A stretch of 64,000 bases of DNA. Source: Larkinella humicola (GTDB lineage Bacteria; Bacteroidota; Bacteroidia; Cytophagales; Spirosomataceae). The first letter of the stretch is position 1. Every line of letters starts with the position of its first letter. Under the pieces are notes generated by a model. That model saw only the letters and a program-made list of their open reading frames with translations. It did no database searches and was not told the origin of the DNA. The stretch lies in NCBI RefSeq assembly GCF_008727875.1, contig NZ_VTWS01000002.1, positions 620,001 to 684,000 on the forward strand, written 5' to 3'. Both the position numbers and the translations under genes were made by a program. Of the stretch, positions 18,358-47,937 are shown piece after piece.

Positions 18358-18370
18358 AACCGTTGCTTTT

Positions 18371-18444
18371 TCCCCTAAAGGCCGGGCGGCCGGAGCCGGA
18401 CTTTCGCATCCGGAAGATGCTTTGTCCAAGTCCCCTTTAGGGGA
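18371..18444. repeat. Inverted repeat TCCCCTAAAGG / CCTTTAGGGGA
   Basis: Arms at 18371-18381 and 18434-18444 are complementary and enclose a GC-rich interior (including gccgggcggccgg). The element begins 14 bp after the stop of the sialidase-fold gene. Relatives with the same CCCCTTTAGGG core lie at 46351-46429 and 63321-63408. Possible terminator or REP-like element. Confidence 0.55.
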
Positions 18445-18460
18445 ACGGGGCAGCAGCCAG

Positions 18461-18620
18461 CCCACGGTTAAAACCGTGGGCCAGGGGATCATTTGGGCAT
18501 TCTCAAACCGTTTCAACGGTTTATTGCTCCTAAAACCGTTGAAACGGTTTCCCGATCCAGATGCGTTTTTCCGGATTCCCCACGGACGGTTAGCCGATGC
18601 GATGAAACTGTGGGCGGGAT
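18461..18620. repeat. Composite nested-palindrome element, copy 1 (right side decayed)
   Basis: Outer palindrome CCCACGGTTaaAACCGTGGG (18461-18480), then two 18-nt arms that are each palindromic and complementary to each other (18505-18522 and 18533-18550, AAACCGTT..AACGGTTT). The right outer palindrome seen in copies at 20807 and 29673 is here interrupted by extra bases (cccacgg at about 18579 to actgtggg ending near 18614). Together with the preceding repeat it fills the 333-bp gap before the isomerase gene, with no other feature seen. Confidence 0.75.
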
Positions 18621-18690
18621 TGTCCACTTCCGGGTTCGTTCCAAATAATTATCTCATTCTTAAAAAACCAAACACATCACCCTGATTCTC

Positions 18691-19419
18691 ATGAACTTGA
18701 AACGATCCGTTGTGAACGCCAGCATCGAAACGGCGAAAGAAGTTATCGCCCATTTCGGATTGTACCTCCCTCCTTTCGCCAACTGGACCCTGGACCAGTG
18801 GCTCGACGCCGGGCCGGAATACAACGAAATCCGCGACTGCATGCTGGGTTGGGACGTCACCGACTTTGGCAGCCAGGATTTTCACACCATCGGGCGGACG
18901 TTGTTTACCGTCCGCAATGGCCGACCTAACCAGCCGAATTATCCGAAACAATACGCCGAAAAGTGGCTGATCGACCCGGAAAACCAACGCGCACCGGCCC
19001 ACTTCCACCTTTCCAAACGCGAAGACATCATCTGCCGCGCGGGTGGTAATGTGCTGGTGCAGCTCACCAAGGCCGACGCCGAAGGCCATCCGTCCAACGA
19101 GACTTTCCTGACGCAGGTGGACGGCTGTACCCGGCGGTTGGGACCGGGCGAGATCGTGCGACTGCGGCCCGGCGAAAGCCTGACGATTCACCCGCGCACC
19201 ATTCACCAGTTCTGGGGTGAAGAAGGCACTGGCTGGCCGATCGACGGCGTTGGCTACACGCTCAGTGCCGAGATTTCGAGCGTCTGTGACGACCTGAACG
19301 ACAACGTTTTCCTGGTCGATTACGGCATCCGGTTTCCCGAAATTGAAGAGGATGAAGCCCGCCGGTATTTCCTCTGCCATGAGTATCCCAGGGCTGGTAT
19401 TGAACTTATTAGCGAATAA
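18691..19419 (+). CDS. D-lyxose/D-mannose ketol-isomerase (cupin-type)
   Basis: 242 residues, no signal peptide, so cytoplasmic. The sequence matches the D-lyxose isomerase family: an N-terminal helical segment, a cupin barrel with metal ligands in APAHFHLSKREDII (two His and a Glu, about residues 108-118) and a later His in TIHPRTIHQFWGEE (about 168-181). Family members interconvert D-lyxose and D-xylulose, or D-mannose and D-fructose, with a divalent metal. Here it probably feeds a released aldose into central metabolism. It follows the sialidase-fold gene after a repeat-filled gap and is 11 bp from the transporter gene. Confidence 0.88.
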   Translation: MNLKRSVVNASIETAKEVIAHFGLYLPPFANWTLDQWLDAGPEYNEIRDCMLGWDVTDFGSQDFHTIGRTLFTVRNGRPNQPNYPKQYAEKWLIDPENQRAPAHFHLSKREDIICRAGGNVLVQLTKADAEGHPSNETFLTQVDGCTRRLGPGEIVRLRPGESLTIHPRTIHQFWGEEGTGWPIDGVGYTLSAEISSVCDDLNDNVFLVDYGIRFPEIEEDEARRYFLCHEYPRAGIELISE

Positions 19420-19430
19420 CCCTAAACCTG

Positions 19431-20783
19431 ATGATGCCACGTCGCTTTTCGATTGCCCTGCTGGTTTTGTCCGGCCTGGCCTTTGCCGGTTCTGCTTTCC
19501 TGTATGCGTCCGATAAACCCGCAGCAACCGGCCCGGTGTTGATGCTCGCCCTGGTTTTGCTGGCGCTGGCGTTCCGGGGCTTTGCCCAACTCAAAGGTTT
19601 TTCCTACACCGTCTGGATTCTGGCGGCTGTCACGGTCGCGATGTTCTACCCCACGTATTTCTTCACCGTCGGCGATTTTCAGTTAAAAAAGCTCATCGTC
19701 CCTTTCGTGCAGCTCACCATGTTCGGCATGGGGTCGCACATGAGTTTTGACGATTTTAAGGGCGTTGTCAAAATGCCGAAGGGCGTTCTGATCGGAATTG
19801 GCTGCCACTTTATGGTGATGCCGCTGGTCGGTTTTTCGCTCTCCCATCTCTTCGATTTTGAGCCCGAAATTGCGGGGGGCGTCATCCTGATCGGCTGCGT
19901 TTCCAGCGCGATGGCGTCCAATGTGATGTCGTATCTATCGGGGGCCAACCTGGCGCTGGCCGTCACGATCGGGGCCTGTTCCACCATCCTGTCGCCGTTC
20001 ATAACGCCTTTTCTGATGAAATGGCTGGGCGGGCAGTACGTCGAAATCGACATCGCCCACATGATGATCGACATCACCAACATGATCATCATCCCGATTG
20101 TGGCCGGTTTTATTTTCAACCTGTTTTATTTCGGCAACGAAACCAGACGCGCCAGAACCGTTCAGTTGCTGGCATTTGCCGGTATCATTCTGGTAACCAA
20201 TCTGGTGATGATGGTAGTCACGATGGCCGACGGCATGGGTTTTCTGATGGCCCTCCTGACCTCGACGTTCTGGTTTTACCTCCTGCCCATGGTGAGCGCG
20301 ATGCTGCTGAGAAATGCAAAGAATATCAACCGGCCCATGATCGAAAGCAGCCTTTCCTTTATCGCCATGCTCGGCATTGTGATCAATACCGTCATCATCA
20401 CGGCGTCCGGGCGCGACAATCTGCTGCAAGTCGGTGGATTGCTGATCATTACCTGCCTGTTGCACAACCTGATCGGCTTGAGCGTCGGTTATTTCACGGC
20501 CTTGCTGTTCGGACTGCCGGAGCGCGACCGCCGGACGATTGCCTTTGAAGTCGGGATGCAAAACGGCGGAGTGGCCACCGGCCTGGCCCTGCAAATGGGG
20601 AAAGTAGCGACCTTGGGGCTGGCGTCGGCCATCTTCGGACCGTTGCAGAACGTGACGGGTTCGGCGCTGGCGAACTGGTTTCGGAAACGACCGACGGGAG
20701 AAAATGCCGCTCCTGAATTCCCAGTTCCATCTGAAAGTCAGAATGTTCCGGCAAGCCTATTCTCGGGAGAACGTTCCGTGTAA
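19431..20783 (+). CDS. Bile acid:Na+ symporter (BASS/SBF) family inner-membrane transporter
   Basis: 450 residues with about ten hydrophobic segments. The SBF fold is visible in LTMFGMGSHMSFDDFKGVVKMP (read as MGSHMSF..F), GGVILIGCVSSAMASNVMSYLSGANLALAV and the late FEVGMQNGGVATGLAL, the family's ion-binding crossover regions. ATG at 19431 or 19434. Family members transport organic anions with sodium, and some act on pantoate or 2-keto acids. Its place 11 bp after a sugar isomerase suggests uptake of a sugar derivative or sugar acid, which is an inference from context. The last about 30 residues are polar and variable. A composite repeat follows 23 bp after the stop. Confidence 0.88.
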   Translation: MMPRRFSIALLVLSGLAFAGSAFLYASDKPAATGPVLMLALVLLALAFRGFAQLKGFSYTVWILAAVTVAMFYPTYFFTVGDFQLKKLIVPFVQLTMFGMGSHMSFDDFKGVVKMPKGVLIGIGCHFMVMPLVGFSLSHLFDFEPEIAGGVILIGCVSSAMASNVMSYLSGANLALAVTIGACSTILSPFITPFLMKWLGGQYVEIDIAHMMIDITNMIIIPIVAGFIFNLFYFGNETRRARTVQLLAFAGIILVTNLVMMVVTMADGMGFLMALLTSTFWFYLLPMVSAMLLRNAKNINRPMIESSLSFIAMLGIVINTVIITASGRDNLLQVGGLLIITCLLHNLIGLSVGYFTALLFGLPERDRRTIAFEVGMQNGGVATGLALQMGKVATLGLASAIFGPLQNVTGSALANWFRKRPTGENAAPEFPVPSESQNVPASLFSGERSV

Positions 20784-20806
20784 AAAGAGGCTATTGTCAA
20801 ATCCAG

Positions 20807-20950
20807 CCCACGGTTTGAACCGTGGGTTTATAAGAAATGCATCGCGTGCGCTGAAACCGTTTCAACGGTTTTGAGATCTCAAAACCGTTGAAACGGTTTC
20901 CCATACCAGATTCGTTTTTATTACCGGATTCCCACGGTTCAAACCGTGGG
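20807..20950. repeat. Composite nested-palindrome element, copy 2 (complete)
   Basis: Four palindromes in symmetrical order: outer CCCACGG..CCGTGGG at 20807-20826 and 20931-20950, inner AAACCGTT..AACGGTTT at 20854-20871 and 20882-20899. The inner two are also complementary to each other, separated by only ten bases that include gagatctc. It fills the convergent gap between the BASS gene and the sigma factor gene, so it may terminate both. Confidence 0.85.
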
Positions 20951-20973
20951 CTGTTTTTTAATTCGTATCGAAA

Positions 20974-21570
20974 TCAATGCAGCAGCAACAGCGTCGATAC
21001 AACCCCGGCCACGTATAACAACTTGACCCGCAGCACCCGCAGGCACTTGCTGATGTGAAATTCGATGGTTTTTTCGGCCAGCCCGAGTTGCTCCGCAATT
21101 TCCTTGTTGGCAAGGCCACTGCGGCTGAGTTCGAACACTTCCCGGCTTTTTTCGGGCAGATTTTGCAATTCCCGCAGGTAGACTTCCTGCACTTCCCGCA
21201 CCTGAATCCACTCCTGCACGACGTTGGCCGAGTGCGAAACCTGAACTTCCGAATACACCTCGTCGAGCGAAACCGATTTGTGCAGGATTTGCTTCCGGAG
21301 GTAGGAAATGATCCGGTTTTTGAGCGCCGAAAACAGATAGACCTGAACGGTTTTGTCGATGGAAAGAGCTTCCCGCTGCACCCAGAGTGTCACAAATAAA
21401 TCCTGCACCAGATCTTCGGCGGCATCCGAATCACCGGTTTTCCGGTAGGCCAATGCATAGAGTTTTCCGGAAAACCGGGCGTGCAGTTCCGCAAAAGCCG
21501 CCGAATCGGCTTTCGTTTTCACCAGTTGCCACAGCGCCTGGGCGTCCATCTCACGGTACGGGTTGTGCAT
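20974..21570 (-). CDS. ECF RNA polymerase sigma factor (Bacteroidota FecI-like)
   Basis: About 198 residues from the ATG at 21570 (an in-frame TTG at 21597 and ATG at 21549 are alternatives). Sigma region 2 is seen in AFAELHARFSGKLYALAYRKTGDSDAAEDLVQDLF (AEDLVQDLF motif, about 50-60) and region 4 in LPEKSREVFELSRSGLANKEIAEQLGLAEKTIEFHI. The C-terminus has a hydrophobic tail (LLYVAGVVSTLLLLH). It is divergent from a FecR-type anti-sigma gene, which precedes an STN-domain SusC. In such systems substrate binding at SusC signals through FecR to release the sigma factor, which then transcribes the susCD genes. Confidence 0.93.
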   Translation of the reverse strand: MHNPYREMDAQALWQLVKTKADSAAFAELHARFSGKLYALAYRKTGDSDAAEDLVQDLFVTLWVQREALSIDKTVQVYLFSALKNRIISYLRKQILHKSVSLDEVYSEVQVSHSANVVQEWIQVREVQEVYLRELQNLPEKSREVFELSRSGLANKEIAEQLGLAEKTIEFHISKCLRVLRVKLLYVAGVVSTLLLLH

Positions 21571-21719
21571 CGATTCTAAAAAGCAGGCCGAATGCAATAC
21601 TACTAAGGTTTCAGATAGTATTCGTTATAAACTTTCTTCAAATCCCACCAGGGTTAGCGTTTTTTTGTGCGTCTTGTAGGTAAAGCAGCCAACCAAGCAG
21701 GAGCTGACCAAACGAACCT

Positions 21720-22736
21720 ATGAACCCAAAAGCCATTTCGCCCGACCTGTTGAAGAAATACCTGGAGGGAAAGTGCAACCCGGACGAAGTTGAACAGGTA
21801 GAGCAATGGTACGCCAGCCTGAACAATGTAACCGCCGAAAGCCGGGACTTTGACCAGCCCCGGCACTTGAAAAAAATTCAGGAACTTATCCGCCACCAAA
21901 CCGACGACGAAATCCAGCCGGAACAACCGGTCAAAATCCGTCCGCTGGTGCCGAATGTCTGGCGATATGCTGCGGCTGCTGTGGTGCTGCTCATCGCGAG
22001 TCTGGGCGTCTACTTCTATCTGAATACGACCCAACCGGCTGCAAACCCGGTCGCCGATGCGGTTTCCATTGTCAACACGCAGAAGCAGGTGGTCCGTCAC
22101 CAGTTGCCGGATGGCAGCAAGGTCTGGTTGAATCCGGCCGCCAAAATTCAGTATACGGCCCGGGCGTTTTCCAAAACGTCGCGGACGGTGAGCGTCGAAG
22201 GCGAAGCGTTTTTTGAAGTAACCAAAGACCCGGCGCGGCCCTTCTTTGTCAAGAGCAATTCGCTGCTGGTGAAAGTGTTGGGAACCAGTTTCAACGTAAA
22301 GTCCAACTCCGATCAGTCGTGGTATGAGGTATCGGTCGTAACGGGCAAGGTGTCGGTGTCGGTTCCGGACCGCCAGGGGAAAGCGAAATCGGTGCTGCTA
22401 TTGCCCCGGCAACAGGCGGTTTTCGAAGTTGCTTCGGGCCTGCTGACGTCCACGGAACTCTCGAAATTCCGGGAAAAAGTCGATACTTGGCAGCCCATTT
22501 CGCTCACGTTTGAGGACGAAAAACTGTCGGAAATTGCGATGCGACTGCAAAAGAAATACGGAATCAAAATCAAACTCGCCAACCCCAATCTGGCCAATTG
22601 CCGCCTGAAAGCCACTTTTGACCACAACCGGCTGGCGGAAATTCTGGAAATAACGACCCAAATGGTGGAAGCGACTTACGAAATGCGGGGCGACAGCATC
22701 GTGATCGACGGCGAAGGCTGTGGTACCGTAGAATGA
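21720..22736 (+). CDS. FecR-family anti-sigma factor
   Basis: 338 residues: a cytoplasmic N-terminal anti-sigma domain (1-90, LLKKYLEGKCNPDEVEQVEQWY), one transmembrane helix (about 82-101, YAAAAVVLLIASLGVYFYL), a FecR beta domain (about 115-215, RHQLPDGSKVWLNPAAKIQY ... GEAFFEVTKDPARPFFV ... GTSFNVKS) and a C-terminal DUF4974-like secretin/STN-type domain (about 255-330, SLTFEDEKLSEIAMRLQKKYG). It should hold the sigma factor encoded divergently (122 bp apart by starts/ATG region) until the STN domain of the downstream SusC signals. 202 bp separate it from susC, with a hairpin at 22834-22858. Confidence 0.93.
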   Translation: MNPKAISPDLLKKYLEGKCNPDEVEQVEQWYASLNNVTAESRDFDQPRHLKKIQELIRHQTDDEIQPEQPVKIRPLVPNVWRYAAAAVVLLIASLGVYFYLNTTQPAANPVADAVSIVNTQKQVVRHQLPDGSKVWLNPAAKIQYTARAFSKTSRTVSVEGEAFFEVTKDPARPFFVKSNSLLVKVLGTSFNVKSNSDQSWYEVSVVTGKVSVSVPDRQGKAKSVLLLPRQQAVFEVASGLLTSTELSKFREKVDTWQPISLTFEDEKLSEIAMRLQKKYGIKIKLANPNLANCRLKATFDHNRLAEILEITTQMVEATYEMRGDSIVIDGEGCGTVE

Positions 22737-22833
22737 ACGCAAAAAACCGGAAGACGAAATGTTAATGATTATCGCTAAACCCCCTCCTATGCTACAACGA
22801 CACTCCCTCTTTTTGCCGGGCTTGTAAAGGAAA

Positions 22834-22858
22834 TCAGGAGTGATTGCGGCACTCCTGA
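22834..22858. promoter_or_regulatory. Hairpin between fecR and susC
   Basis: TCAGGAGTG (22834-22842) and CACTCCTGA (22850-22858) make a 9-bp perfect stem with a 7-nt loop. CATCAC/GTGATG (22883-22901) adds a second small palindrome. No T-run follows, so attenuation or operator function is as likely as termination. A sigma-dependent susC promoter is expected in this gap but not identified. Confidence 0.4.
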
Positions 22859-22938
22859 CTCTGAACAAGCATTCCTGAATCCCATCACTCGGAAGGTGAT
22901 GATCGGCTTTCTATTGTTCAATTTAACCACCCAAACCT

Positions 22939-25900
22939 ATGCATTTTTTTCTAAAAAACAAGACTGTATATGCCCTTATGCGGTTATCGGTGCTTCAAAT
23001 TCTGCTCATTGGACTCCTCACGGCGGTTGCCTACGCCCGGGAATCCGACGCGCAGGATCTTCTCAAACGAAACATTAGCCTGAAGGCTGAAAATATATCA
23101 CTGCAAAAAGCCCTTTCGGAAATCGAAAACCGGGCCAAGGTACGGTTTGCCTACAGCCGGAGCATGATTCCGGTCGACGAAAAAGTGAGCATCTCGGCCC
23201 TCAACGAACCGCTTTCGGCCGTCCTCGACCGGCTTCTGTCACCCTTGCAAATCGAATACAAATCCACCAACGAACAGATCATTCTCAAGCGCAACCGACG
23301 AAAAACGTCCTTCCTGAACGCCCCCGAGATTCTGCGGGACATTACGCCCCTGCCGATCCAGCCCAAAGCTGACATCACGATTTCGGGGAAAGTGACCGAC
23401 GAGAAAAACGAGGCCCTGCCGGGTGTTAGTGTCGTTCTGAAAGGCTCACAGCGTGGAACCACCACCAATGCCGAGGGCCGGTATACGCTCGCAGTTCCAG
23501 ATGAAAAGGCGACGCTGGTTTTCTCGTTTGTGGGCTATTTGCCGGAAGAAATGGTCGTTGGCAATCGGTCCACCGTCGATGTTTTACTCAAAACCGACAC
23601 CAAAGCCCTGGCCGAAGTGGTTGTGGTCGGCTACGGAACGCAGCAAAAAGAAGACATTACCGGCGCGATTTCCACGATTTCCGAACGGCAGATGAAAGAC
23701 GCGCCCGTGGCGCAGGTGGGGCAATTGTTGCAGGGAAAACTGAGCGGGGTGCGCATCGATCAGGTGTCGGGACGGCCCGGCGAAGGCATGAACATCAAAA
23801 TCCGGGGGGCGGTTTCGATCACCGCCGGGGCCGATCCGCTGTATGTGGTGGACGGAATGCCCATTTCCGGCAACATCAACACCATCAACCCCGCTGAAAT
23901 TGAAAGCATTACGGTTCTGAAAGATGCCGCAGCCTCCTCGCTCTACGGTTCCCGGGCGGCCAACGGCGTGGTGCTGATCCAGACCAAATCGGCGATTCCC
24001 GGCAAAACGCAGATCGATTTCGATGCCTATTACGGGTTTGAACAGATCCCGAAATCGCGTCGGCTGACGATGATGAACGCGCAGGAATACGCGCAGTTTC
24101 AGAAAGAAATCGCCGAACTGAACGGCCGCCCGGTGAACGCAGCTTTCCAGAATCCCGAACAATACGCCGGAAAAGGCACCGACTGGTACGACGCCATCAC
24201 CCGAACCGCGCCCATCCAGAGCTACAACCTGACCGTCAACGCGGGCATGAAAAATTTCAGCACCTCGGTCACGGGCGGTTATTTCAGTCAGGAAGGCGTC
24301 ATTGTCGGAACGGGGTATAAGCGGCTTTCGCTGCGGGTCAACTCGATTTTTACGCCCAGCCCGAAGGTGCGAATCGGCTTCAACATCGCCCCGAATTACG
24401 CTACCAACACCAATTTTGCCACCGACGGCGGGCCCTACGGTTCCGAGAACATCGTTTCGGCGGCTCTGGCGACCACCCCGCTGGCGAGTCCGTATAATCC
24501 GGACGGTAGCCTGACGCTGACCGCTTCGGACCCGGCCACGTTTGGCAATCCGAACTGGCTCCGGGTGGCCAAAGAGAAAGTGTATGAGGGGAAGAATCTG
24601 CAACTGCTGGCAAACGCCTTTGTCGAATATAAAATCCTGAAAGGGCTGACGGCCAAGACGACGGTGAACGTTCAGACCAGCAATTCCAACGTGTTCCAGT
24701 TCAATCCGTCGACCATCGGCGTCATGTTTACGCCCCCGCCCCGGATTCCGTTCGGTTCAGACAACTCCAGCCGGTCGTATAACTGGGTGAACGAGAACTC
24801 GTTGATGTACCAAACCGACTTCAACGGGCACAACATCGACGCGCTGGTTGATTTTACGGCGCAGCGGTTTCGGAGTGAAAACACGCTCGTTACGGCCAGC
24901 AACTACGCCGACGACAAGATTCAGGCCGTCAGTGCCGCCGGTCGGGTGGTGGTTACCAGCGGGGTTCAGGAGTGGGCGTTGCTGTCGTATCTGGCGCGGT
25001 TCAATTACAATTACAAGAGCAAATACCTCTTCACGGCGTCGGTTCGGCGCGACGGTTCTTCCCGGTTTGGGCCGGACAACCGCTGGGGAAATTTCCCCTC
25101 CGCTTCCGTGGGCTGGATTGTGTCGAAGGAAGATTTCTGGAAATTCAAACCGGTTTCGTTCCTGAAACTCCGCGCCAGCTACGGCACCACCGGCAATTTT
25201 GACATCGGGAATTACACGTTTCGTTCGACCATCAGCCCGGTGTATTACGGGTTTAACAACGGGCTGTTTCAGGGCCGGGCCACGACCAACCTGGGCGACA
25301 ACACCTTAGGCTGGGAACGCAAAAAGCAACTGAACGTGGGCGCCGACATCTATTTCCTGAACGACCGCATTCAGTTGACGTATAATTATTATTCCACGAA
25401 ATCCAGCGATTTGCTGTTTAACGTTGCGGTTCCCCAATCGTCCGGTTTCAGTAACATTCAGACCAACATCGGCGAGCTGAAACTGTGGGGCCACGAAATC
25501 GGAATCAATACCTATAACATCAACACCAGCCGGTTTTCGTGGAATACCAACTTCAACCTTTCGTTCGACCGCAACAAAACCGTCAGCCTGTCGACCCAAT
25601 CAACCACGGCTTTGTTCCACGGCATCAGCAGCTACGGTTTTTTCAGCCACCGCTCGCAGGTAGGCCAGCCCGTCGGCATGTTCTACGGGGCCGTGCAGGA
25701 TGGGGTCTATGTGAATCAGGCCGACTTCGACCGTTCGCCCAAATACGCTGATTCGCAGGTCGGAACGATCAAATTCCGGGATTTGAACGGCGACGGAAAA
25801 ATCACGTTTCCCGAAGACTACACCGACATCGGCAACCCCTGGCCGGATTTCATTTTCGGGATGACCAACACATTTACGTACGGGAATTTTGACGGCTCGC

Positions 25901-26349
25901 TGACCCTCACCGGCACCTACGGCAACCAGATTCTGACGCAGTATGAAAACTGGACGACCAACCTCGACGGCGTTTTCAACGTTCTGGCCGAAGTAAAAGA
26001 CCGCTGGAAATCGCCGGAAAACCCGGGAGCGGGCAAATACGGCAGCACTAAACAGGGAACAACGTACCTCGAGCGCGACCGCTGGCACACCCGCTACATC
26101 AAGGACGGGAGTTTTCTGTCGTTCAAAAACATCACGCTGGGCTACACGCTACCACTGAAAGCCGGGAGTGTCGTCCGTCGGCTGCGGGTTTACGGAAGCG
26201 TTCAGAACGCGTTTGTGATCACCCGATATCCGGGACCGAATCCGGAAGTAAACACGCGCAATTCGACCAGCGGCAGTTCGCCGGGTATCGATGAAAATTC
26301 GTATCCGGTGCCCCGCACGGTCAGTTTCGGCGTTAACGTCGGTTTCTAA
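22939..26349 (+). CDS. SusC/RagA-family TonB-dependent transporter with STN signalling domain
   Basis: 1136 residues. After a signal peptide (about 1-35) comes an STN (secretin/TonB N-terminal) domain (about 45-118, SLKAENISLQKALSEIENRA ... IEYKSTNEQIILK), then a carboxypeptidase-D-like domain (about 148-225, GKVTDEKNEALPGVSVVLKG), the plug (EVVVVGYGTQQKEDITGAI; ANGVVLIQTKS) and a barrel ending FGVNVGF. The STN domain is the hallmark of transporters that signal to FecR/ECF-sigma pairs, which are encoded directly upstream. It imports a glycan with the downstream SusD. Compared with the SusC at 11.9 kb it has the extra STN domain, in line with the different regulators. Confidence 0.95.
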   Translation: MHFFLKNKTVYALMRLSVLQILLIGLLTAVAYARESDAQDLLKRNISLKAENISLQKALSEIENRAKVRFAYSRSMIPVDEKVSISALNEPLSAVLDRLLSPLQIEYKSTNEQIILKRNRRKTSFLNAPEILRDITPLPIQPKADITISGKVTDEKNEALPGVSVVLKGSQRGTTTNAEGRYTLAVPDEKATLVFSFVGYLPEEMVVGNRSTVDVLLKTDTKALAEVVVVGYGTQQKEDITGAISTISERQMKDAPVAQVGQLLQGKLSGVRIDQVSGRPGEGMNIKIRGAVSITAGADPLYVVDGMPISGNINTINPAEIESITVLKDAAASSLYGSRAANGVVLIQTKSAIPGKTQIDFDAYYGFEQIPKSRRLTMMNAQEYAQFQKEIAELNGRPVNAAFQNPEQYAGKGTDWYDAITRTAPIQSYNLTVNAGMKNFSTSVTGGYFSQEGVIVGTGYKRLSLRVNSIFTPSPKVRIGFNIAPNYATNTNFATDGGPYGSENIVSAALATTPLASPYNPDGSLTLTASDPATFGNPNWLRVAKEKVYEGKNLQLLANAFVEYKILKGLTAKTTVNVQTSNSNVFQFNPSTIGVMFTPPPRIPFGSDNSSRSYNWVNENSLMYQTDFNGHNIDALVDFTAQRFRSENTLVTASNYADDKIQAVSAAGRVVVTSGVQEWALLSYLARFNYNYKSKYLFTASVRRDGSSRFGPDNRWGNFPSASVGWIVSKEDFWKFKPVSFLKLRASYGTTGNFDIGNYTFRSTISPVYYGFNNGLFQGRATTNLGDNTLGWERKKQLNVGADIYFLNDRIQLTYNYYSTKSSDLLFNVAVPQSSGFSNIQTNIGELKLWGHEIGINTYNINTSRFSWNTNFNLSFDRNKTVSLSTQSTTALFHGISSYGFFSHRSQVGQPVGMFYGAVQDGVYVNQADFDRSPKYADSQVGTIKFRDLNGDGKITFPEDYTDIGNPWPDFIFGMTNTFTYGNFDGSLTLTGTYGNQILTQYENWTTNLDGVFNVLAEVKDRWKSPENPGAGKYGSTKQGTTYLERDRWHTRYIKDGSFLSFKNITLGYTLPLKAGSVVRRLRVYGSVQNAFVITRYPGPNPEVNTRNSTSGSSPGIDENSYPVPRTVSFGVNVGF

Positions 26350-26369
26350 ACCCTTCAATTCGACTCACC

Positions 26370-27878
26370 ATGAAAAATAGATTTTTACTCGCGGGACTCC
26401 TGCTTATCCTGGTCAGTGCCTGCAAAGATTTTTTAGATGTTGTTCCAGAAACCGTGCTGACACCGGCCAGTTTCTACCAGTCGAAAGCGGATTTTGAACA
26501 GGCCGTCGGCGGAATTTACGCCCCCCTGCAACCGCTGTATAACCAGGACTGGATTCTGAACGAGATGCGTTCCGACAACACCCATTTTGTGTTCAACATC
26601 GCCCAGCGCGGTCCCAAACCGGAAGAAGATCCTTCGACGTTCACCATCGAAAACAACAACCGCAATACGGCCGGAAAATGGACGAACGACTACCTGATCA
26701 TCGCCCGCGCCAACCAGGTGCTGACTACGATCGACGCGGTCGATTTCGATCAGGCTTCCAAAGACAATCTGAAAGGGCAGGCGTATTTTCTTCGGGCTTT
26801 TGCGTATTTCGATTTGCTGAAAAATTTCGGCGGTGTCCCGGTTTTTCTGGAACCGGCCGGTTCCTACAAAGACACGTTCAAGCCGCGCGCCGACATCGCC
26901 GAGGTCTACAAACAGATCATCGCCGACGCCGAACAGGCGGCCAAACTGCTGCCCGCCAAAACCGCCCAGACGGCTGGACGCGTCGCATCGGGCGCGGCTT
27001 ACACCCTGCTCGGCGACGTGTATATCAACCAGAAACGCTGGCCTGAAGCCGAAGCCTCGTTGAAACTGGTGACAGCCCAGGGTTACGCGCTGGTGGCCGA
27101 ATACGGCGATGTGTTTAAACCGACGAACGAGGGCAATAGCGAGATCATTTTCGATGTGCAGTACGCGGAAGGCACGTCGCAGGCCGTCAGCAATTACATG
27201 CCGTACAAGTTTTTGCCGGTTTTAGCTGATCCATCGGTGATTACCGGCGTAAAACCGTCGTCGTCGAACACGGATGGCTGCTACAACACGCCAACGCCGG
27301 ATTTGCTGGCGGCTTACGAGGATACGCTCAGAGACAAACGGTACAAGGCGTCGATCGGGTTTTATTCCGGCACCTCGCCGTTGGTGGGCGTTACGTATAA
27401 AAATACGCCGTACATCAAGAAGTATCAGTTTCCGCACGCCCGCTACGGCGAAACCGGCGTCAACTGGCCGGTCTACCGGTATGCGGAAGTACTACTGATG
27501 CTGGCCGAAGCGGTCAATGAACAGGGGCGTTCGGCGGATGCGGGCGGTTTTCTGAATCAGGTTCGCACCCGGGCGGGCTTGCCCAATGCCACCGCTCATA
27601 CCCAGACGGCGCTGCGCGACGCCATCCTGCGCGAACGCCGGATCGAGCTGGCTTTTGAGAACAAACGCTGGCATGACCTGGTCCGCAGTGGGCTGGCGGT
27701 CAAGACGATGAGCGAATACGGTGCGCGAATCAAGGCCAATCCGCAGAAATATTATTACCCGCTGGGTAGCGCGCCCGCAGCCGCTGCTTTTAACGTTACC
27801 GAGCGGGATTTGCTGTATCCGATTCCCATCGGCGAGATCATCATCAATCCGGATATGAAACAGAATCCGGGGTATTGA
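26370..27878 (+). CDS. SusD/RagB-family nutrient-binding outer membrane lipoprotein
   Basis: 502 residues, lipoprotein signal with LVSAC lipobox (Cys about 18), 20 bp after susC. Typical SusD elements: LTPASFYQSKADFEQAVGGIYAPLQ, QAYFLRAFAYFDLLKNFGGVPVFLEP, a YRYAEVLLMLAEAVNE TPR-type helix and the final RERRIELAFENKRWHDLVR with IINPDMKQNPGY. It works with the preceding SusC in glycan binding. A long inverted repeat starts 7 bp after its stop. Confidence 0.95.
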   Translation: MKNRFLLAGLLLILVSACKDFLDVVPETVLTPASFYQSKADFEQAVGGIYAPLQPLYNQDWILNEMRSDNTHFVFNIAQRGPKPEEDPSTFTIENNNRNTAGKWTNDYLIIARANQVLTTIDAVDFDQASKDNLKGQAYFLRAFAYFDLLKNFGGVPVFLEPAGSYKDTFKPRADIAEVYKQIIADAEQAAKLLPAKTAQTAGRVASGAAYTLLGDVYINQKRWPEAEASLKLVTAQGYALVAEYGDVFKPTNEGNSEIIFDVQYAEGTSQAVSNYMPYKFLPVLADPSVITGVKPSSSNTDGCYNTPTPDLLAAYEDTLRDKRYKASIGFYSGTSPLVGVTYKNTPYIKKYQFPHARYGETGVNWPVYRYAEVLLMLAEAVNEQGRSADAGGFLNQVRTRAGLPNATAHTQTALRDAILRERRIELAFENKRWHDLVRSGLAVKTMSEYGARIKANPQKYYYPLGSAPAAAAFNVTERDLLYPIPIGEIIINPDMKQNPGY

Positions 27879-27884
27879 AAAAAG

Positions 27885-28094
27885 CCCTGTCAGCGCCGGG
27901 CCGTCGTACGGTCGAAGACCCTGACAGCGGCTATCGCTTATCCAACTCTATTGTTCAACAACGGTCCTAAATCAGCTATTTTTCCAATATGATACGACCT
28001 GAATTTCTCTACGGCAATGCAGAGTGTAACGTCAGCCCAGCGTTGCAACCGCTGACAGGGCCTTCGACCGTACGACGGCCCGGCGCTGTCAGGG
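27885..28094. repeat. Long inverted repeat in the leader of the DUF1080 gene
   Basis: Arms of 46 nt (27885-27930 and 28049-28094) pair at 43 positions. Both carry ccgtcgtacgg cores bordered by ccctgtcagc/gctgacaggg motifs that are themselves repeated inside the arms. The right arm ends two bases before the ATG at 28097. The 118-nt loop has no ORF that looks real. It may act as a terminator for susCD or shape translation of the next gene. Confidence 0.75.
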
Positions 28095-28096
28095 TT

Positions 28097-29644
28097 ATGC
28101 ACCGGTTTTTGCTATTGACTACACTTCTATGGATGTCCTTCTCAACCGGTTTCGCACAACCCCGCCTGGACAAAACCTTCTTCAACGGGAAGGATCTAGT
28201 CGGCTGGTCGGCGACGGACATGACGTATTGGTCGGTGAAAAACGGTGCCATTGTGGGCCGGGCCGACCAGCCGGTGGCCAAAAACCGCTTCCTCTGGTCG
28301 TCGGTCAACGTGAGCGATTTTTATTTGAGCATCGACGTCAAACTCGAACCGGACGACCGCAATGCCGGCATTCAGTTTCGCTCCAAACAGGCCGACGCGA
28401 CGGGGCAAGCCCTAGGTTATCAGGCGGATATGGGCAAGGACGTCTGGGGGCGATTGTACCACGAACACGGTCGGCAGAAACTGGACTGGGGCGACCGGGG
28501 CGAGAAAGCCGTCAAACGCGGACAGTGGAATCATTACGAAATTCTGGCCGTGGGCGACCGGATCTGGACGGCGATCAATGGCAAGCTGGCGGTAGCAATC
28601 AAAGACCCCGGCGGGGATGCCTCGGGGCAGATTGCCCTCCAGATTCACAGCGGTGATCCGCAAACCGTTACCTACAAAATCAACAAGCTGGTCCATCATC
28701 CGAAAGTCGAACTGGCGGGAATGAACGAAGCACAGTTGAACGACCAACTGAAACGCCCGGAGGACAAACGCCAGAGCCGTTTGCCGCTGAAATTCAACCC
28801 GGACGAGGTGATTGCATTTGCGGGCGGCACTAACATCGCCACGATGCGCAAAGACGGTATTCTGGAAACGCTGCTCTTGGCCGCTCACCCCACCACAAAA
28901 CTCCACCTCTGGAACCTGGGCTGGGACGGCGACACGGTGTATGAGCAATTCCGGGATGTCGGTTTCGGGAGCTGGAGCAAGAATCTGGACAGCCTGGGCG
29001 CCGACGTGGTGTTTGTGCAGTTCGGGCAACTAGAGTCGCTGGATGGCGAAAAAGCCCTGCCCGGTTTTGTCAAAGCGTATCAAAAATTGCTGGACAGTAT
29101 TCGGAAAACCGACCGGCGCATCGTGCTGCTTTCGCCGATCCCGTTTGAACCCGCCCGTTCGCACCTGACCCCGGAGGGTAAATCGAATAATCGGTTGACG
29201 AACGCGCCCGTTGAGCAATACACGAATGCGATCCAAAAGCTGGCGGAATCCGACGGGTACAGTTTTGTCGATCTGTTTCATCCGGTTCAGTCGTCGGCTT
29301 CGTTCGGGACTTTGACGACCAACGGGATGCACCTAAACACCGACGGCCAGCAATTGGTGGCGGAATTAATCTTGAAAGCCTTGCATCAGCCGCAGGAATT
29401 TTCCAATCAGTTCGCTCCGCTTCGAAAGGAAGTTCTGACGAAAAACGTCCTGTGGTTCAACTACTGGCGACCGAGCAACTGGGCATTTCTGAACGGCGAC
29501 CGGATCACGCAACCGTTTAGCCACGACTGGAAAGACAAAAACCGGCGGATTTTTCCCGAAGAAATGAAAGCGTTCGAGCCGCTGATCCGGGAAGCCGAAC
29601 AGCGAATTGCGGACGAACAACACAAGCTGGCTCCGGTGCGATGA
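28097..29644 (+). CDS. DUF1080 (3-keto-glycoside hydrolase-like) and SGNH-type fusion protein
   Basis: Start at ATG 28097, where the signal peptide begins (MHRFLLLTTLLWMSFSTGFAQ); the open frame upstream only translates the inverted repeat. About 515 residues. Residues 25-205 form a DUF1080 jelly-roll (FNGKDLVGWS, YWSVKNGAIVGRA, GIQFRSKQAD, WNHYEILAVGDRIWTAINGK), a family with members that cleave 3-keto-glycosides. Residues about 235-450 resemble an SGNH esterase-like domain (IAFAGGTNIA, FVQFGQLES, TTNGMHLNTDG) but the nucleophile Ser of the usual GDS block is not present, so esterase activity is doubtful. The combination is seen next to PVC-type cytochrome proteins, and one is encoded downstream here. 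Probably periplasmic. Confidence 0.8.
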   Translation: MHRFLLLTTLLWMSFSTGFAQPRLDKTFFNGKDLVGWSATDMTYWSVKNGAIVGRADQPVAKNRFLWSSVNVSDFYLSIDVKLEPDDRNAGIQFRSKQADATGQALGYQADMGKDVWGRLYHEHGRQKLDWGDRGEKAVKRGQWNHYEILAVGDRIWTAINGKLAVAIKDPGGDASGQIALQIHSGDPQTVTYKINKLVHHPKVELAGMNEAQLNDQLKRPEDKRQSRLPLKFNPDEVIAFAGGTNIATMRKDGILETLLLAAHPTTKLHLWNLGWDGDTVYEQFRDVGFGSWSKNLDSLGADVVFVQFGQLESLDGEKALPGFVKAYQKLLDSIRKTDRRIVLLSPIPFEPARSHLTPEGKSNNRLTNAPVEQYTNAIQKLAESDGYSFVDLFHPVQSSASFGTLTTNGMHLNTDGQQLVAELILKALHQPQEFSNQFAPLRKEVLTKNVLWFNYWRPSNWAFLNGDRITQPFSHDWKDKNRRIFPEEMKAFEPLIREAEQRIADEQHKLAPVR

Positions 29645-29672
29645 GCACTATTCGTCTATTTTCAAAATATAG

Positions 29673-29812
29673 CCCACGGTTTGAACCGTGGGAATCCGTC
29701 GAAAAAAACACGGCCAGGAAACCGTTTTAACGGTTTTGCAAACCGCCTTAAACCGTTAAAACGGTTTATAAAAATTGCGTTTTTTCTCCAAACCCACGGT
29801 TCAAACCGTGGG
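29673..29812. repeat. Composite nested-palindrome element, copy 3 (complete)
   Basis: Same order as copy 2: outer CCCACGG..CCGTGGG at 29673-29692 and 29793-29812, inner AAACCGTT..AACGGTTT at 29719-29736 and 29750-29767. The inner palindromes use TTAA centres where copy 2 has TTCAA. The outer arms keep the flanking agcccac/gtgggct. It lies between two genes of the same strand. Confidence 0.85.
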
Positions 29813-29868
29813 CTGTATGAACCTGCAAACGCTCAATTCATCATTCCCAAAACCTGATTTTTTGTCAA

Positions 29869-37700: not shown

Positions 37701-37794
37701 GAATGATAAATGTAAAATGCTGAATGTAAAATGTAAAAGGGACGGTTTGGAAAAACTTTTACATTTTACATTCAGCATTTTACATTTATCATTC
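37701..37794. repeat. Perfect 39-bp inverted repeat, AATGATAAATGTAAAATG family, copy 1
   Basis: Arms 37701-37739 and 37756-37794 are perfectly complementary over 39 nt with a 16-nt loop. They contain repeated gtaaaatg units. The element fills the gap between the MFS and SDR genes of the same transcription unit. A relative with 41-nt arms lies at 47818-47916. Confidence 0.9.
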
Positions 37795-37798
37795 TTTT

Positions 37799-39091
37799 CT
37801 ATCCCCTCCGCTCGATTTTCCCCACCAGAAAAATATACGAACAGGCACCGATCAGACCCAGGGCGCCGATAAAGACCAGAGCCGGTTTGAAATCGCCGTC
37901 TTTGGCCAGATAGCCGATGACGATCGGAACGATGATCGACGCCAGATTGCCCATGAAATTGAAGACACCGCCCGTTAACCCAATCAAGTGTTTCGGTGAC
38001 AACAAAGAGACGAAAACCCACGAAATCAGGGCCATACCGGCTCCGAAAAACGAAAAGGCCATGAAGAAAATGATGTAGGCCGTGTCGGTGCTGTAGTTGG
38101 CACCCACAATGCTGGTCGATAAAATGAGTCCGACGATGATCGGCGTTTTGCGGGCCGCGCTCACCGACCAGCCCTTTTTGACCAGATTATCGGACAGGAA
38201 GCCGGACAATAAAACCCCGGCGCAGGCGGCTAGAAAAGGAATGGAAGCCAGGTAACCGGATTTGATAAAATCCAGGCCCCGGTATTTTACCAGATAGGTG
38301 GGAAACCAGGTCAGAAAAAACCAGAGCGTCGCATTCACGGCAAATTGGGCGATATAGACGCCCCACAACGTGCGGCCCCGAAACACCAGTTTAATGTTTT
38401 CCCAACTCCATACACTGGTGTGCTTCGTTCCCGCTTTTTTTCCCCGGAACAAACCGCCCCCCTCTTCGATATACGCCAGTTCAGCCTCATTGACGCCCTT
38501 GTGCTCCAGCGGATCGCGGTAGGAAAGGTACCAGACAACACCCCAGACCAAACCGACCAACCCGGTGATGACGAACAGCCCTTTCCAGCCCGCGTAATAC
38601 TGAATCGTTACCAGAACCGGCGTCAGAAACGCCAGGCCGATGAATTGGCCCGAAACGTACATGGCCGTTGCAGCCGCCCGCTCATTATCCGGAAACCAAC
38701 TGGTTACGATCCGGTTGTTGATCGGATACGACGGTGCTTCGAACGCCCCGGTGGCCAGCCGCAACGCAAACAGGCTGGCAAAGCCACGTGCAAAGCCCTG
38801 AAATACAGTGGATATCGACCAGGTAATGAGACAGAAGGCGTACAAAATCCGGGGGCCGAAACGGTCGGCAACCAGCCCGCCGGGAATTTGCAACACCGCG
38901 TAGGTCCAGCCAAAAGCGGAAAAAATATACCCCATTTCGACCGGAGACAGGGCCAGGTCTTTGCTCAGCGAAGCCGCAGCCACCGAGAGGTTACTGCGGT
39001 CTAAGTAGTTGATAACGACATTGATGAATACGAGTGCCAGCATCCCGTATCGTACCCGGGTTTTGGGCGCCTTGCCAATGACTTGTTCCAT
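37799..39091 (-). CDS. MFS transporter, anion:cation symporter (ACS) type, sugar-acid uptake
   Basis: 430 residues and 12 hydrophobic segments. Motifs of the ACS family are visible: INYLDRSNLSVAAASLSKDLAL, FSAFGWTYAVLQIPGGLVADRFG, ALRLATGAFEAPSYPINNRIV and the loop SWFPDNERAAATA. Known ACS relatives carry hexuronates, galactonate or glucarate. With SDRs, a TIM-barrel isomerase and a periplasmic heme protein in the same cluster, uptake of a sugar acid or keto-sugar is likely. Cytoplasmic membrane. Confidence 0.92.
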   Translation of the reverse strand: MEQVIGKAPKTRVRYGMLALVFINVVINYLDRSNLSVAAASLSKDLALSPVEMGYIFSAFGWTYAVLQIPGGLVADRFGPRILYAFCLITWSISTVFQGFARGFASLFALRLATGAFEAPSYPINNRIVTSWFPDNERAAATAMYVSGQFIGLAFLTPVLVTIQYYAGWKGLFVITGLVGLVWGVVWYLSYRDPLEHKGVNEAELAYIEEGGGLFRGKKAGTKHTSVWSWENIKLVFRGRTLWGVYIAQFAVNATLWFFLTWFPTYLVKYRGLDFIKSGYLASIPFLAACAGVLLSGFLSDNLVKKGWSVSAARKTPIIVGLILSTSIVGANYSTDTAYIIFFMAFSFFGAGMALISWVFVSLLSPKHLIGLTGGVFNFMGNLASIIVPIVIGYLAKDGDFKPALVFIGALGLIGACSYIFLVGKIERRG

Positions 39092-39266
39092 TTACGGTTT
39101 TGGGTTTAGGGGTTTTCCGTTTTCGGTATACGGTTTTCGGTGCGGTTCCCCGCCGGGACTGACGCCTACTTGCTGGTGCGTTTCTGTTTCAAGCGTCGGC
39201 AAGCTTGCGTCAGTCCCGGCGGGGAACCGCACCGTAAACCGGATACCAAAAACCGTAAACCGTTAA
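39092..39266. repeat. Oriented inverted-repeat element, copy 1 (core arms 39138-39164 and 39206-39232)
   Basis: 27-nt perfect core arms starting GGTGCGGTTCCCCGCCGGG and ending actgacgc, flanked by further imperfect complementarity rich in ggtttac/gtaaacc. The loop (about 39165-39205) matches, as reverse complement, the loop of the copy at 40068-40195, so the two copies have opposite orientation. Lies between the MFS and SDR genes. Confidence 0.85.
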
Positions 39267-39267
39267 A

Positions 39268-40053
39268 CTATTTCGCCGTCCAGCCGCCATCGACGGTGAG
39301 CAGGGAGCCGACCATGTAGGTGGCGGCATCGCTGGCGAGGAAGATTGCGGCTCCCTGAATTTCGCGCAGATGACCCCAGCGACCCAGTGCAGTGGCACCC
39401 ACAACAAACTTCTTGCCTTCTTCCGTGTCGGCAATCGGCACATTCATATCGGTCAGAAACGGTCCGGGGCAAATGGCATTGACGGTGATGTGATGCGACG
39501 CCAGTTCCAGCGCCAGCGCGCGGGTCATCTGCACCACGGCTCCTTTGCTCGATGTATACGGCGTCCGGTTTGCCAGGCCGACCACGCCCAGCGTACTGGC
39601 CAGGTTGATGATGCTGCCCCGCCCGGCTTTTTTCATGTAGGGCGTCACAGCCCGGCAGCATAGCCAGGTGCCGGTAACATTCGCTGTCATGACCTTGCTG
39701 AAATCCTCCAGCGTCACCTCATCGATGGGTCCGCGGATGTTGATCCCGGCGCTGTTGATCAGAATATCGATCCGGCCAAAAGCGTCGATGGCGGCCTGGG
39801 CCATCGCTTCGGTCTGTTCCTGACTCGTAATATCGGCGCTGAACGAGAGGGCTTTTACCCCAAAATCCTGGCTCAGTTCCTCAGCGGCTCTGGCCCCTTC
39901 TTCCGCATTCCGGTTCACCAGCATCACATTCGCCCCCGCCGAAGCAAGCCCGGCCGCCATCGCGAATCCCAGCCCTTTGGAGCCTCCGGTAATGATGGCG
40001 GCTTTCCCGCTCAAATCAAATTGCTTAATTCCAGGTAATGTTTCTTTACTCAT
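39268..40053 (-). CDS. SDR oxidoreductase, gluconate 5-dehydrogenase-like
   Basis: 261 residues: FDLSGKAAIITGGSKGLGFAMA (Rossmann TGGSKGLG), NSAGINIRGPIDEV, the catalytic Ser in IINLASTLG and Y-T-S-S-K (about 160-164), ending LLTVDGGWTAK. The start pattern FDLSGKAAIITG and the overall resemblance suggest a gluconate 5-dehydrogenase or 2-deoxy-gluconate 3-dehydrogenase-type enzyme, acting on keto/aldonic acids with NAD(P). Two different SDRs in one cluster suggest two oxidation/reduction steps. Downstream of a TIM-barrel isomerase, upstream of the MFS transporter. Confidence 0.9.
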   Translation of the reverse strand: MSKETLPGIKQFDLSGKAAIITGGSKGLGFAMAAGLASAGANVMLVNRNAEEGARAAEELSQDFGVKALSFSADITSQEQTEAMAQAAIDAFGRIDILINSAGINIRGPIDEVTLEDFSKVMTANVTGTWLCCRAVTPYMKKAGRGSIINLASTLGVVGLANRTPYTSSKGAVVQMTRALALELASHHITVNAICPGPFLTDMNVPIADTEEGKKFVVGATALGRWGHLREIQGAAIFLASDAATYMVGSLLTVDGGWTAK

Positions 40054-40067
40054 TATCGGTTGATTGG

Positions 40068-40195
40068 TTTACAGTTTTCGGTTTACAGTTTTCGGTGCGG
40101 TTCCCCGCCGGGACTGACGCATGAAACAAAAACGCGCCAGCAAGCATGCGTTAGTCCCGGCGGGGAACCGCACCGAAAACCGTAAACCGTAAACT
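40068..40195. repeat. Oriented inverted-repeat element, copy 2
   Basis: Core arms 40094-40123 and 40145-40174 with one mismatch, and the same GGTGCGGTTCCCCGCCGGG sequence as the copy at 39.1 kb. The loop aaacaaaaacgcgccagc is homologous to the other copy's loop read on the opposite strand. Flanked by gtttacagttttcgg-type repeats. Fills the gap between the TIM-barrel and SDR genes. Confidence 0.85.
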
Positions 40196-41254
40196 CTAGT
40201 TAAGCCCCAGCTTGTTGCTACTGTAGGAAAGGCAGGAAACGATGTTTTTCTCCTCAACCGCCAGTCGTTCTTCGGGAGAAAGTTGGGAAACCTTCGGAAG
40301 GGCCGGTTTGTAGGTATGCTGTTTGACCATGCGCAGCGTCCGGTCCATATCCGTTCGGGGTATGCCGCCAAACGTTTCCCAATAGGCGTCTTTCCGGCAC
40401 GGTATTTCCAGCGGATCGCGGGTGATCATTTCCAGGTTAAAGGTAACCGCCGGGTTGTGTTTTTTGCAGATGGCCACCATTTTTTGCAAATCCAGCATGC
40501 CGCTGCCGAGCGGTACTTCCGACAACAGAAAACCGTCCGCGTATTCGGCCACGCCCATGTCTTTGACGTGGGTCGTAAACACATACGGAGCCAGCGTTTG
40601 CACCACCTCCATCGGTTCTTCCAGCAGGGCAATGCTGTTGCCAAAGTCCAGCGTTACACCAACCCACTCACTGTCAATCTGTTTTAGAATCGCTACCAGT
40701 TCGTCGGCCCGCCAGTCCTTGTGGTTTTCAACCGCCAGTTTGACTTTGTGTTTGCGCAGAACGGGCTCCGACAGTTGCAGCGAAACCAGCGCGTTTTTCT
40801 TCAACGCCTGCCACTCTTCGTTGGAATGGTAGGTTTCATACCGCCGACCGCTCGAGCAAACCGTCCGCAAAACCGTCGCACCCGCTTCTTTCGCGTTGAT
40901 CACATCCTGCTCAAAAGCCGCTACCTGTTCCGCTTTTTTGGGTAACCCGATGGACCCTTCCAGATACAGGCCCGTTTTCTCCCGTTCCAAACGCACTTTT
41001 TTGGCAAACTCGGCCGACCAGTCTTTGACCACCGTCTGAACCCCGCCCGCGCCAATTTCCCTGCAGTGATCGATCAATTCAATTGCGCTCGTAAAACCGG
41101 GGTATTTTTTGCTTTCGACCTTTGAATTCCAGCGACTTCCGTAGGAATGGACGACCACGCCCATCGGCACGTCTTTCAGGAATGCGGGCATTTTAGGCAA
41201 CGAGATCGCCAGGGCACCCAGGGTCGCCTTTTGTATAAAGTCACGTCTGTCCAT
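40196..41254 (-). CDS. Sugar phosphate isomerase/epimerase-family TIM-barrel protein
   Basis: 352 residues, beginning MDRRDFIQKATLGALAISLP, a Tat-like twin-arginine signal, so probably periplasmic. The remainder is an AP-endonuclease-2/xylose-isomerase-type TIM barrel: VGVVVHSYGSRW region, KVKLAVENHKDWRADELV (metal-binding E and H), VGVTLDFGNSIALLEEPMEVV and YVFTTHVKDMGVAEY and FNLEMITRDPLEIPC (later metal ligands). Family members isomerise or epimerise sugars, and some act on 3-keto-glycosides. Its export signal and gene neighbours (CxxCH dehydrogenase-like protein upstream) suggest a periplasmic step on an oxidised sugar, which is an inference. Confidence 0.85.
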   Translation of the reverse strand: MDRRDFIQKATLGALAISLPKMPAFLKDVPMGVVVHSYGSRWNSKVESKKYPGFTSAIELIDHCREIGAGGVQTVVKDWSAEFAKKVRLEREKTGLYLEGSIGLPKKAEQVAAFEQDVINAKEAGATVLRTVCSSGRRYETYHSNEEWQALKKNALVSLQLSEPVLRKHKVKLAVENHKDWRADELVAILKQIDSEWVGVTLDFGNSIALLEEPMEVVQTLAPYVFTTHVKDMGVAEYADGFLLSEVPLGSGMLDLQKMVAICKKHNPAVTFNLEMITRDPLEIPCRKDAYWETFGGIPRTDMDRTLRMVKQHTYKPALPKVSQLSPEERLAVEEKNIVSCLSYSSNKLGLN

Positions 41255-47794: not shown

Positions 47795-47817
47795 AAAAGT
47801 GTTGGTGTTTTAAAAGA

Positions 47818-47916: not shown

Positions 47917-47937
47917 CTTCGACTTTCGAAACAGATT

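Follow-up and report, generated by a model that had tools for sequence, protein, structure and literature searches.

The Larkinella humicola window analysed here, a stretch of 64,000 nucleotides (G000:C13:620001-684000, G000 being the 7.86 Mb assembly of 20 contigs from which it is taken), carries three copies of a nested-palindrome element, designated W1, W2 and W3, which belong to a genome-wide family in Larkinella. The element is likely to be a non-autonomous unit with two-hairpin ends, resembling the REPINs built from repetitive extragenic palindromic (REP) sequences, which would be mobilised by a transposase of TnpAY1 subclass 1.2; a gene for such a protein is present in the same genome with the hairpins of the element beside it.

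The outer palindrome was found at 28 exact sites in G000 and the inner pair, or core, 31 times, with none in the reverse-read control for the former or in the control for the latter; the inner palindrome alone, allowing at most one mismatch, was found 79 times against once in the control. Chance is excluded as the source of these copies. A genome-wide count of this kind had been proposed in an earlier, sequence-only reading of the window, and it shows that the element is not confined there, as the outer palindrome lies on many G000 contigs and in other genomes.

A complete unit of the form termed type A spans approximately 140 bp. Its two outer palindromes, of 20 nt each, stand just inside a terminal AG on the left and CT on the right, and they enclose two inner palindromes of 18 nt; ~27 nt separate the left outer from the first inner palindrome, ~10 nt lie between the two inner ones, and ~30 nt separate the second inner from the right outer palindrome. 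Measured without AG and CT, 17 of the 18 two-ended type-A copies are 134-155 bp long and one is 104 bp. The three copies lie where the sequence-only reading had placed them, and its description of two as complete and the first as broken on the right by decay is accurate. W2 (20805..20952, AG to CT) has outer palindromes at 20807..20826 (TG centre) and 20931..20950 (CA centre) and inner palindromes at 20854..20871 (TC) and 20882..20899 (GA), and its right hairpin continues into CTGTTTTTT. W3 (29671..29814, AG to CT) is arranged in the same way, with outer palindromes at 29673..29692 (TG) and 29793..29812 (CA) and inner palindromes at 29719..29736 (TT) and 29750..29767 (AA). The decayed W1 (18459..18614) keeps its left AG foot, the left outer palindrome CCCACGGTTAAAACCGTGGG (18461..18480) and both inner palindromes, at 18505..18522 (TC) and 18533..18550 (GA); at the right outer palindrome (18579..18614) the arms CCCACGG and CTGTGGG still flank a loop of 22 nt, and CT is missing from its outer side.

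The two inner palindromes are complementary to each other, as had been claimed, which is partly trivial because any palindrome's two copies complement each other. The genuine signal is the fixed order of their centres, TY first and RA second, in 56 of the 57 pairs listed (of 79 core pairs counted across genomes); the inner pair is therefore oriented though each half is nearly symmetric. The sole listed pair with reversed centres is at G007:C2:139572-139617, where the inner segment of element L044 is seemingly inverted between the inner palindromes. Two further ideas about the palindromes were dropped. Outer centres matched in both arms, which had been offered as evidence for the hairpin and do occur in W2 and W3, are not general, as 7 of the 18 two-ended copies have left and right centres that are each other's reverse complement, against 5.5 expected. 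Pairing of the outer ACGGTT with the inner AACCGT arm as a switch was also rejected, the complementarity being gone where the outer palindrome is CCCACACAT or CCCACTGC.

The bases that abut the outer hairpins are nearly constant. At 21 type-A sites every left outer hairpin is preceded by AG (21/21) and all but one of the right ones are followed by CT (20/21), which makes 41 of 42 ends; the searches did not demand those bases, and the hairpin ends were set by eye in the printed sequence with the flanks in view. This set comprises 19 of 47 stretches fetched from G000 together with W2 and W3, and three of its members are single hairpins. The other fetched stretches are 17 of a second subfamily, type B, and 11 that are halves, degenerate copies, inverted pairs, a Y1 locus or not elements (L023, L031, L039, L042, L050, L059, L062 and L066-L069). 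No consistent target-site duplication was seen by eye at the 21 sites, and the sole candidate empty site is ambiguous.

Pairing in the outer stems was assessed in 83 hairpins (38 distinct), 40 from type A, 30 from type B and 13 from other loci. Among the distinct stems 95.0% of pair cells hold standard pairs, changes on both sides occur in 42 cells against 10.0 on shuffling and at six of the nine stem pairs, and pairing drops to 33-53% when the partner is slid by one to three columns. The outer hairpin is therefore kept, and the earlier expectation that the copies covary and preserve the hairpin itself is confirmed by the stems. This does not show why it is kept, as the set was partly chosen for palindromicity and template switching can homogenise arms. 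The search pattern for the type-B hairpins contained AG and some of the stem, and the 13 from other loci had to have AG and no more than one mismatch; because this selection favours pairing and AG feet, the count of AG and CT ends was restricted to the 21 type-A sites. A GTAG foot occurs in none of the 83 hairpins, the only near-constant foot bases being AG, usually YAG, and a GTGG foot in none of the 40 of type A, the remaining 43 having been picked with AG.

Type B is present at 17 loci in G000, none of them in the window, and has the same inner pair as type A. Its outer palindrome is typically CCCACTGCTTTAGCTGTGGG with a T-T mismatch, and most copies add a terminal inverted repeat of ~24 bp. 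Outer palindromes like those of type B, with an identical core, are also found in G120, a genome of another genus.

Seven Y1 matches were detected in G000 with PF01797. The hairpin-associated gene scores 94.5 bits and lies at C13:805081-805536 (locus L016), next to an open reading frame (ORF) which we take from its sequence to be uvrA, and the palindromes of the element are downstream. In Larkinella sp. C7, L. knui and L. terrae an ortholog is located on the matching side of a uvrA-like gene with identical palindromes downstream. The Y1 transposase gene that the sequence-only reading suggested looking for thus exists, with the element's own hairpins adjoining it. At five of the other Y1 loci (L017-L020 and L022) none of these palindromes was found within 1.5 kb. 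The remaining locus, L021 (G000:C16:133941-137162), encodes a canonical RAYT (NF047646, 99.5 bits) with hairpins of its own, of the GGTCGCGATTTGCAATCGCGACC type, and represents a second REP-like system in G000. As a separate observation, L018 (G000:C17:416278-419619) contains a perfect 38-nt palindrome beginning ACACTACAGGAATGATG at locus positions 1020-1057, ~360 bp downstream of its Y1 gene.

The L016 protein has 152 aa and carries DHVH (HUH motif DH[IV]H), WQTG (WQ motif) and YIASQEHHH, which fits Y---Q--HH, the signature given for TnpAY1 subclass 1.2 in the part of Quentin et al. 2018 (PMC6006769) used here. On these motifs the protein is assigned to subclass 1.2; it has Y---Q and lacks the Y---NP motif of class 2 TnpAREP. 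It scores 78.8 bits against the NCBIfam IS200 model (above the cut-off of 55) and 32.5 bits against the RAYT model NF047646 (below the cut-off of 80). Y115, Q119, H122 and H123, together with H57 of the HUH motif, are invariant in the 36 homologs chosen for alignment. A structure model (predicted local distance difference test score 86) matches the ISDra2 and IS608 transposases that were solved with hairpin DNA, and matches the REP transposase 4er8 more weakly.

An L016 homolog, at an E value of 1e-10 or better, was detected in 109 of 150 family genomes, and ten proteins among the matches listed reach at least 54% identity. At all ten of these loci the inner palindrome stands beside the gene and the outer sequence is variable, being CCCACGGTT in four Larkinella, CCCACCGAT in G033 and G073 (G033 additionally has CCCACGGAT), CCCCCGGTT in G006 and G077, and CCCACACAT in G139 and G012. 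At L140 and L141, from two further genomes of the family that both belong to genus g5, the gene lies between the two halves of the element in the order AG-outer-inner-ATG...stop-inner-outer, over ~600 bp, and in L140 CT is present at the far end. This is the arrangement expected of a parent of the gene-less element. In both, the inner hairpin ends ~13-16 nt before the gene start, so an additional regulatory role for it is possible. Another configuration was seen at L062 (G000:C16:363600-366000) and at the Y1 loci L070-L072, where two outer hairpins face the opposite way (CTGG...CCAG inside) and resemble the joined end-to-end junction of two elements.

The distribution of the palindromes follows that of the closest genes in part. 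The exact outer palindrome occurs in ten of the 150 genomes (controls 0); eight are from the nine Larkinella and the other two are G033 (17 copies) and G073 (one copy), which among the matches listed hold the two Y1 proteins closest to L016 outside Larkinella, at 66% and 60% identity. Fisher's test for the association of the outer palindrome with the closest Y1 outside the genus gives p 0.001, uncorrected for kinship. The exact inner pair is found in eight of the 150 genomes and the exact core in three of 36 genera only.

Orthologous sites show how copies decay. W2, L040 and L044 are complete in G000, and at the corresponding sites in G004 there is exactly one 20-nt outer hairpin between matching flanks. 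W3 is complete also in G007, and L044 is complete in G007 and in G003 (an alignment of 1,144 columns, 91% identical through the element). As both gene trees put G003 outside G000, G004 and G007, it was G004 that lost the interior of L044, and this is one polarised case of collapse to a single hairpin. The polarity rests on the outgroup copy because one gene left the species order unresolved (support 0.13) and another gave G000 with G004. The G000 single hairpins L061, L063 and L064 have AG and CT on their two outsides, as collapse predicts. Both flanks were found in G004 for 15 of the 21 sites (three complete, three single hairpins, nine lacking the element or holding another sequence, with a remnant left at one of the nine) and in G007 for 17 of 21 (six complete or nearly so, two single or single-like, three truncated or degenerate, six with none). 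A possible target-site duplication at L037, the empty-site candidate in G007, was discarded as ambiguous at an A-tract. Collapse may have come about by slippage or by enzyme action; collapse of this kind was proposed for the 'double foot' REPs of subclass 2.4, according to the part of PMC6006769 considered. The sequence-only reading had not noted single-hairpin collapse, the subfamilies, the AG and CT ends, that the transposase belongs to an unusual subclass, or that another genus has a version of the element with the gene inside.

Homologs of L016 were also found in records of Planctomycetota, Acidobacteriota and Verrucomicrobiota. A set of 60 homolog loci was compiled from 30 of 33 broad-search loci and 30 from the family genomes; L070-L072 were excluded as identical to L134-L136, and L084 and L089 share one contig. 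At 24 of the 60 loci the sequence up to 500 bp from the gene contains palindromes that occur two or more times. Where both distal stretches were available, gene-near repeats occur at 21 of 49 loci and distal repeats at none of 49, and none of 600 dinucleotide shuffles contained repeated palindromes. Nearly all of the homolog proteins (57/60) carry Y---Q--HH. At L086 (Verrucomicrobia) and L102 (Akkermansia) the gene is flanked on either side by palindromes of other sequence, arranged as mirror images.

A mechanism can be proposed on this basis. The parent element would consist of such ends enclosing a gene for an HUH Y1 transposase of ~150 aa of subclass 1.2, each end being formed by an outer hairpin that abuts the AG guide (CT on the other strand) and by an inner hairpin of conserved sequence. 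The transposase would bind the outer hairpin on single-stranded DNA. In line with proposals for IS608 and REP systems, base complementarity to the AG foot would direct it to C|T at the far end. The strand would then be cut and rejoined elsewhere, with the 3' sides of genes favoured, and old copies would be reduced to a lone outer hairpin that resembles an intrinsic terminator where a T-tract adjoins it. In the part of PMC8266576 considered here, the TnpAREP proteins of E. coli and Stenotrophomonas are reported to cut at C|T, and for a Marinomonas system it is proposed that CT is chosen through its complementarity to the final two bases of the GTAG foot. The near-constant AG foot and the far-end CT are the pair that the model requires. 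We therefore infer that the subclass 1.2 protein excises and inserts the element as a single strand; it would bind and cleave the element and would have moved the present copies.

The hairpins could instead be host RNA or terminator structures, immobile and selected at gene 3' ends to end or protect transcripts, with the Y1 gene merely adjacent to some of them. Their positions agree with this in part. By mechanical ORF calling, with ORFs that overlap an element omitted, 16 of 22 type-A sites lie between tandem genes, five between convergent and one between divergent genes (W1 is convergent by this calling and tandem by its Pfam-supported neighbours). A tract of T5 or longer is entered at 9 of 42 element ends against 21 of 508 (4%) in the background (p 4.5e-5), and the single-hairpin ortholog of W2 in G004 retains its hairpin and TTTTTT. 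Given the T-tracts and the preference for 3' sides, some copies may act as terminators. As an account of the family, however, this is unlikely, since 33 of the 42 ends have no T-tract, a terminator can do without a set order of four palindromes and without a defined AG/CT boundary, the inner sequence is kept across genera and units of like anatomy adjoin a transposase gene in four genera. Movement by a different enzyme, whether the RAYT of L021, a different Y1 paralog or a DDE transposase with the terminal inverted repeats as its substrate, in the manner of a miniature inverted-repeat transposable element, would explain why G004 and G005 retain many copies without a close subclass 1.2 gene and why type-B relatives have an extra terminal repeat. 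We consider it improbable, as L021 owns different hairpins, the other Y1 loci of G000 have none of these palindromes within 1.5 kb, no consistent target duplication was seen, and among the 150 genomes the exact outer palindrome is confined outside Larkinella to the two with the closest Y1 among the matches listed. It is very improbable that the palindromes are kept only by mutational mechanisms such as template switching and were spread by segmental duplication. Correction of quasi-palindromes can indeed create paired stem changes, palindromes do collapse, and an inner segment can invert, as in G007; against this, copies with differing flanks share a near-constant boundary, and the core is restricted to a few genera.

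Several observations weigh against mobilisation by the subclass 1.2 protein, which remains the favoured reading. G004 (nine outer sites, six cores) and G005 (22 and 17), both Larkinella, have no Y1 above ~40% identity, and their locus beside uvrA is without a Y1 match, so loss of the gene must be assumed in them. G006 has a Y1 of 56% identity with no exact outer palindrome and no core, and G120 has two cores and is absent from the genomes with a Y1 match. Within G033 the gene-side hairpins are of the CCCACCGAT and CCCACGGAT types and the 17 dispersed sites of the CCCACGGTT type; outer sequence and gene are therefore not one to one. Both gene flanks are complete at only two of the ten closest loci, the other eight having hairpins mainly on one side of the gene. 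The orthologous sites in G004 and G007 yielded no clean empty site at which a target duplication could be defined, and template-switch correction of quasi-palindromes also yields paired stem changes. In the 60-locus set, 36 loci lack repeated palindromes by the strict test, and L076, one of 11 loci with incomplete distal stretches, shows a distal repeat. In G017 a dispersed nested unit was considered and dropped, the exact two-palindrome unit occurring only once, at the Y1 gene. Finally, three G000 genes with the same motifs (L017, L018 and L019) have no repeated palindromes nearby. For this last reason a broader proposal is put forward only tentatively, namely that many subclass 1.2 proteins are not orphans and perhaps serve as transposases of widespread insertion sequence (IS)- or REPIN-like elements with compound ends, in which the gene is surrounded by mirror-ordered nested hairpins, two or more at each end, the inner acting as a slowly evolving core signal and the outer as a fast-evolving specificity signal. 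The compound-end anatomy is found in Spirosomaceae and, with unrelated sequences, at L086 and L102 of Verrucomicrobiota.

All three window copies are extragenic. W1 lies between a BNR/lectin-domain gene and a D-lyxose isomerase gene, W2 between genes for an SBF transporter and a sigma factor, and W3 between a GDSL hydrolase gene and a DUF7133 gene. The sequence-only reading had linked the element to carbohydrate loci. With neighbours surveyed at the window copies and further copies on many contigs, a special link of this kind is not supported; of its REP-like interpretation, the dispersal, the kept hairpin, the decay and the Y1 gene are supported, and the argument from matched centres is not. 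The window also contains other repeats. Adjoining W1, at 18370-18453, is a different short repeat with CCCTAAAGG/CCTTTAGGGG ends, which is numerous in both G000 and G004; where G000 has element L060, G004 has a unit similar to this repeat. A perfect inverted repeat of 39-41 nt (beginning GAATGATAAATGTAAAATG) is present twice, ~10 kb apart, at 37701-37801 and 47811-47919, and a palindromic element with GGTGCGGTTCCCCGCCGGGACTGACGC arms and inverted repeats of 54-70 nt occurs twice, at 39098-39268 and 40053-40198. At 27885-28094, inverted repeat arms of 46 nt (93% complementary, 118 nt apart) overlap the start of the ORF at 27989.

In the part of their paper considered here (PMC6006769), Quentin et al. 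set subclass 1.2 apart from the IS200 transposases, without a DNA substrate or IS properties. The elements described here are a concrete candidate substrate for it, complete with guide and cut-site dinucleotides, and natural gene-carrying and gene-less versions are available, as are outer-hairpin variants in four genera, so that what the protein does can be tested directly. With an inner hairpin that stays constant and an outer one that changes, they also provide a comparative system for the coevolution of HUH enzymes and their hairpins. Searches of the open-access literature, which did not extend to subscription papers and preprints, gave titles and abstract openings that mention neither hairpins tied to subclass 1.2 nor the present elements in Larkinella.

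Compared with known systems, the elements resemble the IS200/IS605 family (IS608, ISDra2) in the fold and motifs of the transposase and, at L140 and L141, in a gene between hairpin ends; they differ in having two hairpins per end in inverted, mirror-symmetric order, and in a low-copy gene that is far outnumbered by gene-less copies. Instead of several near-identical gene-carrying copies, G000 has one close Y1, the next listed being 38% identical. The palindrome-associated transposable elements (PATEs) of Haloquadratum are non-autonomous IS200/IS605 derivatives, and are alike in being gene-less derivatives that retain palindromic ends, but they are archaeal. With REPINs and bacterial interspersed mosaic elements, inverted REP pairs mobilised by a RAYT, a class 2 TnpAREP (as described in the parts of PMC3116915 and PMC8266576 considered), the elements share an inverted, dispersed palindrome pair with a short 5' foot, the tie to a low-copy HUH Y1 gene, the decay to single palindromes, and AG and CT ends that fit the proposed GTAG-guided cleavage at C|T. 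The Larkinella foot is AG only, whereas the REP foot is GT[AG]G; each Larkinella end adds a second hairpin of different, more conserved sequence; and the transposase is of class 1 (Y---Q--HH) rather than class 2 (Y---NP). TnpAY1 subclass 1.2 itself, as far as it is described in the part of PMC6006769 considered, agrees in length (~148 aa), DHVH, WQ, Y---Q--HH, low copy number and occurrence in Bacteroidota. Its entry under REP in Table 1 of that paper is 'no' and the conclusions state that it 'does not share IS properties', whereas here hairpins adjoin the gene and are dispersed through the genomes of Larkinella.

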